Shown here: positions 34,070 to 38,975 of the stretch, one piece after another
Position numbering within the stretch: the stretch's first letter is position 1
How the letters are laid out: each line of letters opens with the position of its first letter
NCBI GenBank assembly: GCA_025355005.1
Contig: JANXLV010000019.1
Coordinates: forward strand, 1-64,000
Direction of reading: 5' to 3'
Source of the DNA: Myxococcales bacterium
Lineage (GTDB): Bacteria > Myxococcota_A > Polyangia > Polyangiales > Polyangiaceae
Length of the DNA: 64,000 nucleotides
Made by a program: the position numbers and the translations under genes
Notes under the pieces: model-generated
Told to the model about the DNA's origin: nothing
Database searches by the model: none
What the model saw: the letters and a program-made list of their open reading frames with translations, nothing else

Positions 34070-36055
34070 GTGGGGTCCCCGTCCGAGATCGACAGCGCGC
34101 TGCTGAAGAAGCTGGAGCGGTCGTTTGCTCGGCTTGCGGGCGCGGACGCAGTGATCGATCCTGCGGAGCTGCAGGCGGCGCTCGGTCTCAAGAGTGAGTA
34201 CCTCGCGAAGCGCATCTTCTCCCTCTTCGATACGAACGGCAGCGGCTCGATCGACAGGGAGGAGTTCCTGTCCGCCGTGAAGAAGCTCGTGCTCGGCAGT
34301 CCAGAGGAGAAGCTCCTGTTTGCGTTCCGCCTGATGGATCACGACGGCGACGGCACACTCGACCGGAGTGAGCTCCTTCGCATGGTGACGCTCAGCCTCG
34401 CCGAGAGCACGGTGGTCGCGCGCGACACGCAGCCGCCCGAGCAGCTGGTCGCCGCGCTGCTCCACGCATCGGACACGAACAAGGACGGCCGCGTCAGCTT
34501 CGACGAGCTCTCCGCGGTGATGCAGAAGCACCCCGACCTGCTCTGGCGAATGACCCGGAGCGAGGCGACCTGGATCGCCCCGAACGAGGACCTCTTCGAG
34601 GGCGTAGGTGTTTGGGGGAAGAGCCAGCGCTCGGGCATGGGGCAGATGCTCGCGACTGGCGCTGCGCCCGTGGTGATCGTCGTGGTGTGGATGATCGCAA
34701 ACGTCGCCGTGTTCATGTCGTCGATCGGCAAGACGGAGATGCTCGCGCCTGGCACGAACCCGCTCATACAGGTCGGTCGTGCGCTCGGCGCGTGCCTGGA
34801 TCTCGACGGCGCGCTCATCCTCGTCCCGATGATGCGACGTCTGCTCTCGCGCGTGCGTGCCACGTGGCTGGGCCGGGCGATCCCGGTCGATCATGCCATC
34901 GCGTTCCACAAGCTCGTCGGGCACTCGCTGTTCGCGCTGGCGTGCGCGCACGTCGCTGCGTTCGTTTTCGCCTATGCGGCGGGCCACACGTCACTGCCTC
35001 TCTTCCACGTGCTGATGTCGGCGCGCGGAGCCACCGGCGGTGTGTTGCTGGTGGTCTTCGCGGTGATGTGGCTCTTCTCGCTCGGCTTCGTGCGACGGAG
35101 CGCTCGCTTCGAGCTCTTCTATTTCACGCACCTGCTCTATGTCGTGTGGCTAGGCCTCGCGATCGCGCACGCGCCGCGCTTCCTCTTCTATGCGGGCGTG
35201 CCCATCGCGGGGTTCGTCGTGGAGCAGATCCTTCGCCTCGTGCGGCGCGGCAAGGAGAGCCCGATCTTGCTCGCCGAGCCGCTGCGGTCCGGTGTGACCC
35301 AGCTGCGCCTGCAGAAGCCGAAGGGATTCGACTTCAGCGCGGGCGACTACGCCTTCATCAAGGTCCCGGCGGTCGCGAAGCACGAGTGGCATCCGTTCAC
35401 CATCTCCAGCGCGCCCGAAGCGGAGGAGCTCTCCTTCCACGTCCGCGTGCTCGGCAACTGGACGCACGCGCTCCGCCATCACATCGACATGGGCGCCCCG
35501 CCGGACGTCGCGCATGTGGACGGTCCCTACGGCTCGCCAAGCGCGCACATCTTCAGGTCGAAGGTCTGCGTGCTCATCGGCGCGGGCATCGGAGTGACGC
35601 CGTTCGCGAGCGTGCTGGAGAGCATCGTGCTCCGCGGTAACGGCCAGAGCGACCGCCCTTCGAAGCTCGAGAAGGTGCATTTCTTCTGGCTCAACAAGGA
35701 CCAGTACTCGTTCGAGTGGTTCACGAGCCTGCTCTCCGATCTGGAGAAGACGGATCAGCGCGGCATGCTGGAGGTGAACCTGTGCATGACCGGCGCACGC
35801 AGCGGCCTGACGTCGCTGGGGCTCGACCTCGCGCGTCAGGTGATGCACCAGAAGGGACGCAGCGACATGATCACGGGCCTGCGCACGAAGACGCACTTCG
35901 GTCCGCCGGACTTCCAGACGTGGCTCGGTCGGATCGCGAACGCGCACCCGGGAGAGAAGGTGGAGGTCTTCTTCTGCGGGCCGCCGGGCCTCGGAAAGAT
36001 CGTCCGCGCGACCGCGGAGAAGCTCCGCATGGGGTACAGGGAGGAGCGGTTCTGA
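34070..36055 (+). CDS. EF-hand NADPH oxidase (NOX5/Rboh-type flavocytochrome)
   Basis: The 661-residue protein has three EF-hand calcium loops (54-65, 90-101, 135-146, each starting Asp and ending Glu) and then about six membrane helices from residue 198. Heme ligands show the NOX spacing: His280/His294 (H-x13-H) and His354/His367 (H-x12-H). FAD binding is HPFT 441-444; NADPH binding is GAGIGVTPFAS 504-514 and CGPPG 636-640. KTHFGPPDF and a terminal Phe are NOX hallmarks. The start is GTG at 34070. It should pass electrons from NADPH through FAD and two hemes across the membrane to oxygen or another acceptor, activated by Ca2+. It is the first gene of a five-gene run. Confidence 0.92.
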   Translation: MGSPSEIDSALLKKLERSFARLAGADAVIDPAELQAALGLKSEYLAKRIFSLFDTNGSGSIDREEFLSAVKKLVLGSPEEKLLFAFRLMDHDGDGTLDRSELLRMVTLSLAESTVVARDTQPPEQLVAALLHASDTNKDGRVSFDELSAVMQKHPDLLWRMTRSEATWIAPNEDLFEGVGVWGKSQRSGMGQMLATGAAPVVIVVVWMIANVAVFMSSIGKTEMLAPGTNPLIQVGRALGACLDLDGALILVPMMRRLLSRVRATWLGRAIPVDHAIAFHKLVGHSLFALACAHVAAFVFAYAAGHTSLPLFHVLMSARGATGGVLLVVFAVMWLFSLGFVRRSARFELFYFTHLLYVVWLGLAIAHAPRFLFYAGVPIAGFVVEQILRLVRRGKESPILLAEPLRSGVTQLRLQKPKGFDFSAGDYAFIKVPAVAKHEWHPFTISSAPEAEELSFHVRVLGNWTHALRHHIDMGAPPDVAHVDGPYGSPSAHIFRSKVCVLIGAGIGVTPFASVLESIVLRGNGQSDRPSKLEKVHFFWLNKDQYSFEWFTSLLSDLEKTDQRGMLEVNLCMTGARSGLTSLGLDLARQVMHQKGRSDMITGLRTKTHFGPPDFQTWLGRIANAHPGEKVEVFFCGPPGLGKIVRATAEKLRMGYREERF

Positions 36056-36726
36056 TGAGAACGAAGCTTCTATTTACGGCATTCACGCTGCTAACCCTCC
36101 CAGCCTGCTCGACCTCGACCTCGACCTCGACCTCGACCTCCACCTCGACCTCCACCTCCACCTCCAAGCTTTGCGCTTCTTGTCACCTTCGTGACTTCGA
36201 GGAGGTCGCCCATCCTGTTCACGTTGGGAAGAAGCCCAGCAGCTGCGCGAACTGTCACTTGCAGACCGGGTGGCATCCGACGCAGCTGATGCATCCTGGC
36301 TGGGAGCTCACTGGGAAGCACGTGGGCGCTGCTTGCTTCTACTGTCACGAGGGGACGCCTCCCGTGTTCGAGGGCACGACGAAGCTTTGCTTCGGATGCC
36401 ACGAGCCCGAGCGCAAGAAGGTGACGCAGCCAGACCACACGCACTTCCCGACCACGTGTGAGGAGTGCCACACAACGGACGCGTGGAAGCCGGCAAAGCC
36501 AGATCACGCGGACCACGAGCCCGCGCCGATCGACGCGCCGATCGACGCGGGAGCGCCAGCCATAGCGCCAAGCGCAACCCCGACCGCGCGCCCAACAGCG
36601 GTCCCAACCCATCGCCCCATTCCACGCCCCACCTCGACACCAACCCAAACCCCCACCTCGACCCCTACCGCCGTCCCCACCGCAGTGCCCCCCGACATCC
36701 CCATCAACGCCTCGCGTCGCCGATGA
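36055..36726 (+). CDS. Pentaheme c-type cytochrome lipoprotein
   Basis: The ATG shares one base with the NADPH oxidase stop (TGATG). The 223-residue protein has a lipobox (LTLPAC, Cys 18), a Thr-Ser linker, and five CxxCH heme-attachment motifs (Cys38, 62, 92, 110 and 133) with extra histidines (51, 54, 72, 78, 87, 126, 128) suited to bis-His ligation. A long Pro/Thr/Ala tail follows from about residue 155. It should be an exported electron carrier anchored by lipid. The overlap with the oxidase gene suggests it receives electrons from that enzyme; direct transfer is inferred. Confidence 0.9.
   Translation: MRTKLLFTAFTLLTLPACSTSTSTSTSTSTSTSTSTSKLCASCHLRDFEEVAHPVHVGKKPSSCANCHLQTGWHPTQLMHPGWELTGKHVGAACFYCHEGTPPVFEGTTKLCFGCHEPERKKVTQPDHTHFPTTCEECHTTDAWKPAKPDHADHEPAPIDAPIDAGAPAIAPSATPTARPTAVPTHRPIPRPTSTPTQTPTSTPTAVPTAVPPDIPINASRRR
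36109..36165 (+). repeat. CGACCT/CCACCT hexanucleotide repeat (about 9 units)
   Basis: TCGACC/TCCACC units run immediately after the lipidated-Cys codon of the pentaheme cytochrome and encode a 19-residue Ser-Thr linker. Confidence 0.9.
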
Positions 36727-36775
36727 CCCGATGCACGGGCTACGAACCATTGCCAAGGTGCTCTACGATGCGGGC

Positions 36776-37435
36776 ATGAGTCCGGAGAGAGCGCTCGCCG
36801 TCGCGATCCTCGTGTTCGTGATCAGCGGCTGCACGAAGCAAGCACAGCCTGTGACCGGCGCTCCGATCGCCGTGGCCACGTTCCCACCGCCACCACCGCG
36901 CCCCACGTGCGCCGACGGCGAACGCTGGGATGGTCACGCCTGCGAGCGCATTCCACAGGCCCGCACGCCGCGACCGGCGCCTGCGCTCACGCACGACGTG
37001 AGGATCGGCTCCGGCCTGCTCTTGATCCATCATGGCGACGATCTGCAGGTGAACGAGGACAGCGAGGCCCTCCTCTTCCTCGAGCCTACGCCTGACTCCA
37101 AGCTGACGCCGCACGCGCTCGTCGCGTTCATCACGAACCAGAACCCCGTGTCGCAGGACCTCGTCGTGTATGGGGAGGCGCTGCAGGGCGCACGGGAGAA
37201 GGCGCTCACCCAGTACTCGCTGCTCTCACGCACACCGGGCCGGTGCTTCCAGAACCTGAAGGGCATCGAGACGCGCTGGGCGTTCGCGGAGAGCGGCACG
37301 ATGATGCAGGGGCGCGCGTGCGCGTTCCTCCACAACTCTCACGGCTACTCGTTCATGTACGCCTTCGACCCGCAGAAGCCCGAGGACGAAGCGCGGCTGC
37401 GCGCCGTCGTCGAGGCGACCGAGATGACGGACTAG
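36776..37435 (+). CDS. Small lipoprotein of unknown function
   Basis: From the ATG at 36776 the 219-residue protein has the lipobox VISGC (Cys 19), a Pro-rich linker and a 140-residue soluble domain (GSGLLLIHHGDDLQVNEDSE; GRACAFLHNSHGYSFMYAF). The ATG at 36731 is possible but puts 15 non-signal residues before the signal. It sits 49 bases after the cytochrome gene and 5 bases before the next start, within the oxidase operon. The conserved-looking domain is not one I recognise. Confidence 0.75.
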   Translation: MSPERALAVAILVFVISGCTKQAQPVTGAPIAVATFPPPPPRPTCADGERWDGHACERIPQARTPRPAPALTHDVRIGSGLLLIHHGDDLQVNEDSEALLFLEPTPDSKLTPHALVAFITNQNPVSQDLVVYGEALQGAREKALTQYSLLSRTPGRCFQNLKGIETRWAFAESGTMMQGRACAFLHNSHGYSFMYAFDPQKPEDEARLRAVVEATEMTD

Positions 37436-37440
37436 CGCTG

Positions 37441-38382
37441 GTGCCGTTGACGCGCGCAGCTCATATCGCCCTGCCTCTCGCGCTCGCTGCGTGGCTCGTT
37501 TGCCGCGCCACGCCGGCGTACGCACAGGCCTGCTGCGCTGGAAGCGGAACGGTCACGCCTGCGCGGCTCGCGTTGCACGAACGCGCGCTCGTGGGCGGCG
37601 TCGTCAAGGCAGCATCCGTGCTGGGCTCGTGGGACCAGAACGGCATGTACGTGCCCGCGCGGCCCGGCTCGTCGGAGCTGGATCTCGAGCAAGATCTCTT
37701 CGGCGCGCTCCGCATCGTTCAAGGTGTGCAGGTCGCGCTGCTGGTGCCGTTCGTGGAGACGCATCGCAAGAGCCAGGGCAAGGGGGAGCTCGGCGGCGGC
37801 ATCGGTGATGTGAACGCGAGCGGCCGCTGGGACATCACGAACGCGGGCGCATCGCGCTACGTGCCAGGGATCGCGCTGCTCGCCGGGCTCACCGTGCCCA
37901 CCGGAAAACCTGCGGACGCGTCGGACATCGGCTCGCTCGCGACCGGCGCCACGGGGATTGGCGCATTCCAGATCAACGGTGGCCTTGCCGTCGAGCAAGC
38001 ATTCGGGCCGTGGCTCGTCGGCTTGAGCGGGCTCGTCGCGCAGCGCACCGCACGCACCGTGGGCTCCGGCGACGCCGCCATCCACGAGCGCCTGGGTCCA
38101 CAGTGGACCGCGCAGGCCACGGCGGCCTACGTGTTCCCGCACGAGATCTCGGCGGCGCTCGCCGCGTTGTACACAGTGGAGGAGAACGCGACGATCAACG
38201 GCAAGGACGCGCCGCACACGTCGCACCGTCTCCCCTCACTCTCCCTGGGCACGGCCATTCCGATCACCGATACGTGGAGAGTACAAACATCGCTCTCCGT
38301 GCAGCCGCAGGTGGACGGCCTTGGGCAAAACCAGCCAGCGAACGCAGGAACGGCCATTACGGTGGTACACTCCTGGTTCTGA
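37441..38382 (+). CDS. Outer-membrane beta-barrel-type protein
   Basis: The start is a GTG 5 bases after the previous stop. The 313-residue protein has a signal peptide (MPLTRAAHIALPLALAAWLV, cleaved near AQA), then CCAGSG and amphipathic strand-turn repeats (GLTVPTGKPAD, FQINGGLAVEQAFGPW), ending in Trp-Phe as barrel proteins do. It resembles the MetA-pathway/transporter-type outer-membrane family. Its stop overlaps the thioredoxin-like start by one base. Role: possibly a surface conduit or solute channel for the redox operon; inferred only. Confidence 0.75.
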   Translation: MPLTRAAHIALPLALAAWLVCRATPAYAQACCAGSGTVTPARLALHERALVGGVVKAASVLGSWDQNGMYVPARPGSSELDLEQDLFGALRIVQGVQVALLVPFVETHRKSQGKGELGGGIGDVNASGRWDITNAGASRYVPGIALLAGLTVPTGKPADASDIGSLATGATGIGAFQINGGLAVEQAFGPWLVGLSGLVAQRTARTVGSGDAAIHERLGPQWTAQATAAYVFPHEISAALAALYTVEENATINGKDAPHTSHRLPSLSLGTAIPITDTWRVQTSLSVQPQVDGLGQNQPANAGTAITVVHSWF

Positions 38383-38975
38383 TGTCGCGACGCGTTCTTC
38401 TCGCTCTGCTCGCCACCGTGTCTGCGTGCGCAGGATGTGCAGGCAACGGCACCGCGGACCCGCGGACGCCAGCTAGGCTGGCCGTCTCCACCGCGGAGAT
38501 GCGCAAGGGCACGGACGGAGCAGACCACGCGATCGTCGCTCCCGGCGCAAAGTTCACGGTGATCGAGTTCTTCTCTCATCACTGTCCGTGCCAGGAGGCG
38601 CACGACCCTCGCCTGCGTGAGCTCGCGCAGAGCTATGGACCGCGCGGCGTCGCGTTCTACGCCGTCGACTCGGAGTCTGGCGCGACCATCGAGCGCGATC
38701 AGAAAGAGTCCACCGCGCGCGAATATCCGTATCCCGTGCTCATCGACGGCGGCGGCAAGCTCGCGCGCGCAGTCGGCGCCACGTACGCCACCTACACCAT
38801 CGTCCTGGACGCCGAAGGACACGTGCTCTACGGCGGCGGTATCGACACCGACAAGAGCCACCTGACGGATGGGGCCACGCCGTACCTGAAGAACGCGCTC
38901 GACGAGGCCCTCGCGAGCGGCAAGGTCAAGACCCCGCGCACGGAAGCCTTCGGCTGCGCGCTCACGCTGGAGTGA
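38382..38975 (+). CDS. Thioredoxin-fold lipoprotein with Cys-Pro-Cys motif
   Basis: The 197-residue protein has a signal sequence with candidate lipobox ACAGC, then a redoxin/TlpA-like fold. The active-site region reads FFSHHCPCQEAHDPR, a CPC motif rather than the usual CxxC, and a third Cys sits in the C-terminal FGCALTLE. This C-terminal Cys is usual in this redoxin subfamily. It should catalyse thiol/disulfide exchange, peroxide reduction or metal delivery in the periplasm. It closes the five-gene oxidase operon with a one-base overlap. Confidence 0.8.
   Translation: MSRRVLLALLATVSACAGCAGNGTADPRTPARLAVSTAEMRKGTDGADHAIVAPGAKFTVIEFFSHHCPCQEAHDPRLRELAQSYGPRGVAFYAVDSESGATIERDQKESTAREYPYPVLIDGGGKLARAVGATYATYTIVLDAEGHVLYGGGIDTDKSHLTDGATPYLKNALDEALASGKVKTPRTEAFGCALTLE

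Follow-up and report, generated by a model that had tools for sequence, protein, structure and literature searches.

The DNA analysed here, called the window, comprises 64,000 nucleotides of contig JANXLV010000019.1 from a Myxococcales bacterium. It carries five tightly packed plus-strand genes: an EF-hand flavocytochrome (NOX), a multiheme lipoprotein (CYT) and three downstream genes (LIP, OMP and TRX). A TGATG stop/start overlap joins NOX to CYT; CYT and LIP are separated by a gap of 49 bases and LIP and OMP by one of 5 bases, and OMP and TRX again overlap by 1 base. A promoter and terminator scan of the region detected no signal above chance. An earlier note on this DNA had listed the same five open reading frames with the same overlaps and gaps, and all were recovered (Table 1). 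The subject of this analysis is the relationship between the first two genes, which probably constitute a two-gene electron-export module, a Ca2+-gated NADPH:multiheme-cytochrome oxidoreductase.

Table 1. Features of the NOX-CYT locus and of the genes downstream, in window coordinates
Feature	Position	Strand	Basis
NOX: EF-hand NOX5-type flavocytochrome b, 661 amino acids, GTG start	34070-36055	+	Pfam domains; human NOX5, E = 2e-105
EF-hand loop DTNGSGSIDREE, residues 54-65	34229-34264	+	
EF-hand loop DHDGDGTLDRSE, residues 90-101	34337-34372	+	
EF-hand loop DTNKDGRVSFDE, residues 135-146	34472-34507	+	
Arg237, oxygen-reducing-centre Arg (NOX2 R54, CsNOX5 R256), kept; flanks A-R-G -> G-R-A	34778-34780	+	
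Heme ligands of transmembrane helix 3, His280 (inner) and His294 (outer)	34907-34951	+	
Phe298, replacing the oxygen-reducing-centre His (NOX2 H119, CsNOX5 H317, DUOX1 H1148)	34961-34963	+	Alignment
Heme ligands of transmembrane helix 5, His354 (inner) and His367 (outer)	35129-35170	+	
TGATG stop/start overlap of NOX and CYT, 1 base	36053-36057	+	
CYT: pentaheme c-type cytochrome lipoprotein, 223 amino acids, NOX-linked subfamily	36055-36726	+	Five CXXCH; lipobox; Cytochrome_C7
Five-heme core, CXXCH at residues 40, 64, 94, 112 and 135	36172-36471	+	
Pro/Thr-rich tail ending PPDIPINASRRR	36472-36726	+	Alignment
LIP: small lipoprotein, orphan, outside the conserved module	36776-37435	+	No family match
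OMP: predicted 12-stranded outer-membrane channel, COG4313/FapF-like, half of a separate pair	37441-38382	+	AlphaFold2 and Foldseek
TRX: Redoxin/AhpC-TSA-type protein with CPC motif, half of the OMP-TRX pair	38382-38975	+	Domain match

The products of the first two genes correspond to what the earlier note had read in them, a NOX5-type flavocytochrome with three EF-hands and a five-heme c-type lipoprotein. The NOX protein matches the Pfam families Ferric_reduct, FAD_binding_8 and NAD_binding_6 above cut-off, and human NOX5 is its best match among solved structures. Each of its three EF-hand loops is a canonical loop of 12 residues, a membership feature of the NOX5 type, and the ferric-reductase domain with its two pairs of histidines stands together with the FAD_binding_8 and NAD_binding_6 domains, as expected for that type. 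Judged by these features, the protein is a NOX5-type flavocytochrome by descent. It has in common with the NOX5/NOX-EF family (human NOX5, CsNOX5) the N-terminal EF-hands, the six-helix ferric-reductase domain, the four heme histidines and the FAD/NADPH domains, whereas it differs from human NOX5 and CsNOX5 by the replacement of the oxygen-centre histidine, by a remodelled periplasmic face and by the constant presence of a multiheme cytochrome c neighbour. The CXXCH motifs of CYT number exactly five and do not vary across the 17 aligned relatives; a lipobox cysteine (Cys18) and a Pfam match to Cytochrome_C7 accompany them. It thus combines the several CXXCH motifs and the export signal of C7-like multiheme cytochromes, and three PF01578 genes for c-cytochrome assembly are present in the same genome. 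Directly after the lipobox lies a hexanucleotide array (CTCGAC x 9.5, positions 36108-36164) that encodes a (Ser-Thr)n linker, is absent from the relatives and is possibly a slippage-prone spot.

One line of evidence for a functional relationship between both genes comes from their distribution. All 184 genomes of the order were searched with NOX (homologue cut-off E <= 1e-40) and homologues were found in 26 of them; in a phylum-wide sample of 379 genomes (E <= 1e-30) only 12 genomes had one, 10 of which belong to this order. A search for NOX homologues on plasmids found none. In one NOX clade, a penta- or octaheme CYT follows NOX in 19/19 loci, although two of these (G467, G377) reach the contig end inside CYT and the NOX of G035 is divided between two contigs. 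Another two NOX fragments stop short of the junction and are unscored for linkage. In these 19 loci, which come from 18 genomes, CYT starts between -16 and +4 nt from the NOX stop, mostly through TGATG or TTGA overlaps, whereas none of the order's remaining seven NOX5-like loci has a multiheme gene close by. The recurrence of the NOX-CYT junction in 19 loci is not due to chance. In two loci, L044 (genome G050) and L100 (G432), NOX is broken between the EF-hand or C-terminal part and the remainder, by frameshifts or assembly errors, and the downstream CYT is open.

The three remaining genes behave differently. The OMP product is predicted to form a barrel, as the earlier note had surmised (AlphaFold2 model, predicted local distance difference test (pLDDT) 80), and the model matches FapF and a COG4313 channel (Foldseek E=1.7e-15); TRX, described there as thioredoxin-like with a Cys-Pro-Cys motif, belongs to the Redoxin family and carries the motif HCPC. 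The possibility that all five genes build one system, with OMP as the outer-membrane exit and TRX as the thiol acceptor, finds some backing in the tight packing with 1-base overlaps, in the modelled barrel and in the proximity of OMP-TRX to another pentaheme cytochrome elsewhere. However, OMP, which is present in 26/59 relatives, was followed by TRX in 11/11 other OMP loci examined, with NOX or CYT in none of them, and several genomes carry both pairs unlinked (in G010, G035, G050, G051 and G056, NOX-CYT and OMP are on different contigs). The predicted channel has 12 strands and is not an MtrB-type conduit. LIP is not conserved either: family searches gave no match, and its homologues amount to one paralogue in its own genome and one weak match elsewhere. 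Because neither OMP-TRX nor LIP is co-inherited with NOX-CYT, a single five-gene system was rejected; it is largely refuted by these comparative data and we consider it very improbable. The co-occurrence of the five families, for which the earlier note proposed a search, therefore holds for NOX and CYT and fails for the rest, which were not found beside NOX in any other NOX locus read, the adjacency of OMP-TRX to NOX-CYT being seen only in this genome. Since OMP-TRX forms a pair apart, the window, on this comparison, contains a conserved two-gene module followed by happenstance by an orphan and a second, independent pair. In other loci (L071-L078), OMP-TRX can follow a YtkA-like lipoprotein and be near a C554-like pentaheme cytochrome.

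The second line of evidence comes from the oxygen-reducing centre, which in the structures of CsNOX5, DUOX1 and NOX2 is composed of an arginine, the outer-heme histidine and another histidine four residues on (R256/H313/H317, R1087/H1144/H1148 and R54/H115/H119, respectively); in CsNOX5, mutations there alter reoxidation by O2 (PMC8129163, PMC7794343, PMC9711523, PMC9568551). His-119 of NOX2 was the residue dividing NOX enzymes from metalloreductases in a study of the superfamily (PMC3591440). In the window NOX, the arginine and the equivalent of the Thr-178/Gly-179 dipeptide are present (Arg237, Thr322-Gly323) and the signature histidine of oxidases producing reactive oxygen species (ROS) is replaced by Phe298. 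Judged by this signature, the predicted enzyme should be kept out of the class of ROS-generating oxidases. The alignment extends the replacement to the whole clade: this column holds F, Y, L or V in 19/19 CYT-linked NOX, and the two unscored fragments have Phe there; it holds His in the seven unlinked myxococcal NOX, in L052, in CsNOX5 and in human NOX5. Heme ligands are intact in all the aligned sequences. Among 466 testable columns, six (222, 236, 298, 301, 372 and 406) tell the 19 linked sequences fully apart from the 10 unlinked ones. Five of these six fall, around the outer heme, within 70 columns on the periplasmic side (hypergeometric p = 3.6e-4), a side that was delimited after the columns were seen, using a topology derived from the heme ligands rather than a structure. 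The oxygen-site arginine lies between positions 236 and 238, whose changes turn its surroundings from A-R-G to G-R-A. Those CYT-linked NOX that have the N terminus keep all three canonical EF loops, save for a few D-for-E ends, and the loop at residues 54-65 is canonical or near-canonical in every linked homologue having that part; the first EF loop is degenerate in 6/7 unlinked NOX.

Changes at the same site were also observed outside the clade. Two EF-hand NOX of Rhodospirillales (L053 and L054), which were excluded from the six-column comparison, have undergone an independent change (R -> Q and H -> Y) and adjoin a divergently encoded monoheme cytochrome c, a coincidence that is suggestive and makes them candidates for a second origin. 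A third Rhodospirillales NOX (L055) is split over two frames. The NOX of L052 groups with those of Rhodospirillales although its record is labelled Mesoflavibacter (Bacteroidota), so the label may be wrong.

Several observations weigh against the conclusion that the loss of the histidine reflects a change of acceptor from O2 to CYT. In the tree, the 19 linked NOX and the two fragments form one clade (support 100/99), sister to two unlinked NOX that bear the histidine (97/95), so CYT was gained and His lost in a single event. The association is, in terms of this phylogeny, one coincident event followed by maintenance rather than many independent ones. The Fisher test of linkage against His loss (p = 1.5e-6) ignores kinship and this single origin, and its p value is therefore no independent replication. 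What the tree does add is that both traits persist without reversion over deep branches and several families. Further, the oxygen-site arginine is retained in 17/19 CYT-linked NOX and the Thr-Gly dipeptide in most of them, ROS production is still attributed to some eukaryotic proteins of the NOX group that lack His-119 (PMC3591440), and modelling of CYT from the 17-row alignment (pLDDT 50, predicted template modelling score 0.21) yielded no usable structure of CYT or of the complex.

The retained arginine and Thr-Gly dipeptide and the ROS attributed to proteins without His-119 speak for a continued production of periplasmic superoxide, with CYT acting as an electron sink or scavenger that draws electrons from superoxide, like a superoxide oxidase, or as a protector of the envelope. 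Reduction of O2 at the outer heme is, in addition, thought to be outer-sphere (PMC8129163). On the other hand, no member of the CYT clade retains the histidine, the residues flanking the arginine and positions in the periplasmic loops have been remodelled, and the CYT gene abuts or overlaps NOX and has its kin among electron-relay cytochromes. Taking both sides together, we regard this reading as unlikely.

The kinship of CYT was analysed with a profile run over the 184 genomes. The top 17 matches (187-249 bits) were all NOX-linked CYTs; two more NOX-linked fragments score lower, and unlinked proteins begin at 163 bits. By these scores the subfamily is exclusive to NOX loci. The nearest unlinked relatives are octa-, undeca- and 14-heme lipoproteins. 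Three of the four clusters read place them alongside 10-heme and 20- to 23-heme cytochromes, and a YpdA-like membrane FeS/FAD oxidoreductase is encoded close by in L140 and L141. The components of these multiheme clusters (8- to 14-heme lipoproteins, 20- to 23-heme and 10-heme cytochromes in L138, L139 and L140; the lipoprotein in L141) have no good match among curated families. CYT resembles cytochromes c7/class III and the unlinked octa- to 14-heme lipoproteins in the spacing of its CXXCH motifs, in the lipoprotein anchor and, for octaheme CYTs, in the triheme C-terminal module; the unlinked lipoproteins differ in occurring mostly in clusters with 10- and 20-heme cytochromes, whereas the NOX-linked subfamily is a group of its own in which the triheme module is mostly lost. 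In a tree of the five-heme cores, those of NOX-linked CYTs fall into a single group (SH-aLRT 86) whose basal members are octaheme, and the octaheme homologues have the triheme module in the place of a C-terminal motif common to several relatives. These data suggest the recruitment of an octaheme relay lipoprotein to NOX, followed in most lineages by the exchange of its triheme module for a Pro/Thr-rich tail with a basic end motif. In pentaheme CYTs the end of the tail is conserved as PPD(V/I)xx(G/R)xSRR (36690-36726 in the window). A search of PDB sequences with CYT returned, for the most part, low-complexity matches of this tail to circumsporozoite protein, which were discarded as chance.

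Multiheme lipoproteins with Pro/Thr-rich parts are familiar from Geobacter, where proteins such as PgcA reduce metals. This precedent would suit a different role for NOX-CYT, as an assimilatory metalloreductase that reduces periplasmic Fe(III) or Cu(II) for uptake in the manner of the FRE branch of the ferric-reductase superfamily, a branch from which NOX enzymes are separated precisely by His-119 (PMC3591440). Yet, in the loci read, CYT is the only window gene that recurs beside NOX, and an inspection of the neighbours, short of systematic annotation, turned up neither a metal transporter nor a receptor. We find this role improbable.

An electron-export module thus remains the favoured reading of NOX-CYT. 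Electrons from cytosolic NADPH would enter the FAD of the NOX5-type enzyme and cross the inner membrane through the two b hemes. From the outer b heme they would pass to CYT, the co-translated lipoprotein docked nearby, and onto its five c hemes, with O2 no longer the main acceptor, and CYT would deliver them to a periplasmic or envelope acceptor encoded outside the module. By analogy with NOX5, Ca2+ probably activates the enzyme when bound by its three EF-hands. We infer the direct transfer from NOX to CYT, the Ca2+ gating and the demotion of O2: because NOX of this clade is always encoded with a heme wire and has lost the oxygen-site residue, its electrons probably go to CYT and not to O2. 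The calcium-gated passage of electrons to the cytochrome had been put forward in the earlier note, and this part of its proposal is strengthened by the co-inheritance of NOX and CYT, by the loss of His in exactly those enzymes and by the intact EF loops, while the unity of five genes in which it was framed has been lost. A surface acceptor (metal or disulfide), also considered in that note, may lie at the end of the line.

Some elements of this scheme have precedents. For SpNOX, a bacterial NOX without the canonical oxygen site, direct reduction of cytochrome c in vitro in the absence of O2 has been reported, and its authors left open what it reduces physiologically, which may be something other than O2 (PMC5676040, PMC11564096). 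By analogy, this activity supports the feasibility of a transfer from NOX to CYT. SpNOX belongs to a different branch, no co-encoded acceptor is known for it and, to our knowledge, it has no EF-hands. In MsrPQ and MsrQ-like flavinylation clusters, a membrane domain of the ferric-reductase type also feeds a periplasmic protein acceptor (PMC8238504), but there quinol or a separate NAD domain supplies the electrons, which end on a molybdoenzyme or an FMN-binding protein instead of a multiheme c cytochrome. A Pfam scan of the neighbouring genes of the window revealed no MsrP or other molybdoenzyme, and the candidate acceptor is a c cytochrome. MtrCAB and other porin-cytochrome conduits likewise use multiheme cytochrome lipoproteins to move electrons through the envelope; in contrast, the locus has neither a large MtrB-type barrel nor decaheme cytochromes, and its COG4313/FapF-like OMP is not conserved with the module. 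Among the literature searched, no paper linked NOX with multiheme cytochromes or NOX5 with Myxococcota, and the NOX-CYT module was not found described.

The SpNOX studies pose as an open question whether bacterial NOX homologues use O2 and, if not, what else (PMC5676040, PMC11564096). This order of bacteria offers a paired natural experiment, with EF-hand NOX that have the oxygen site and no cytochrome on one side and EF-hand NOX that have a co-encoded cytochrome and no oxygen-site histidine on the other, so that the question of the acceptor becomes directly testable. Residues 222, 236, 238, 298, 301 and 372 are candidates for what makes a NOX an oxidase. More speculatively, a calcium-gated, NADPH-driven NOX5-type enzyme may have given up O2 and use a multiheme lipoprotein of its own to export electrons to acceptors within the envelope or beyond it, in which case making superoxide and exporting electrons would be alternative fates of NOX5. 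If NOX does pass its electrons to CYT, the pair would represent a new way of feeding a multiheme electron wire from NADPH and calcium.

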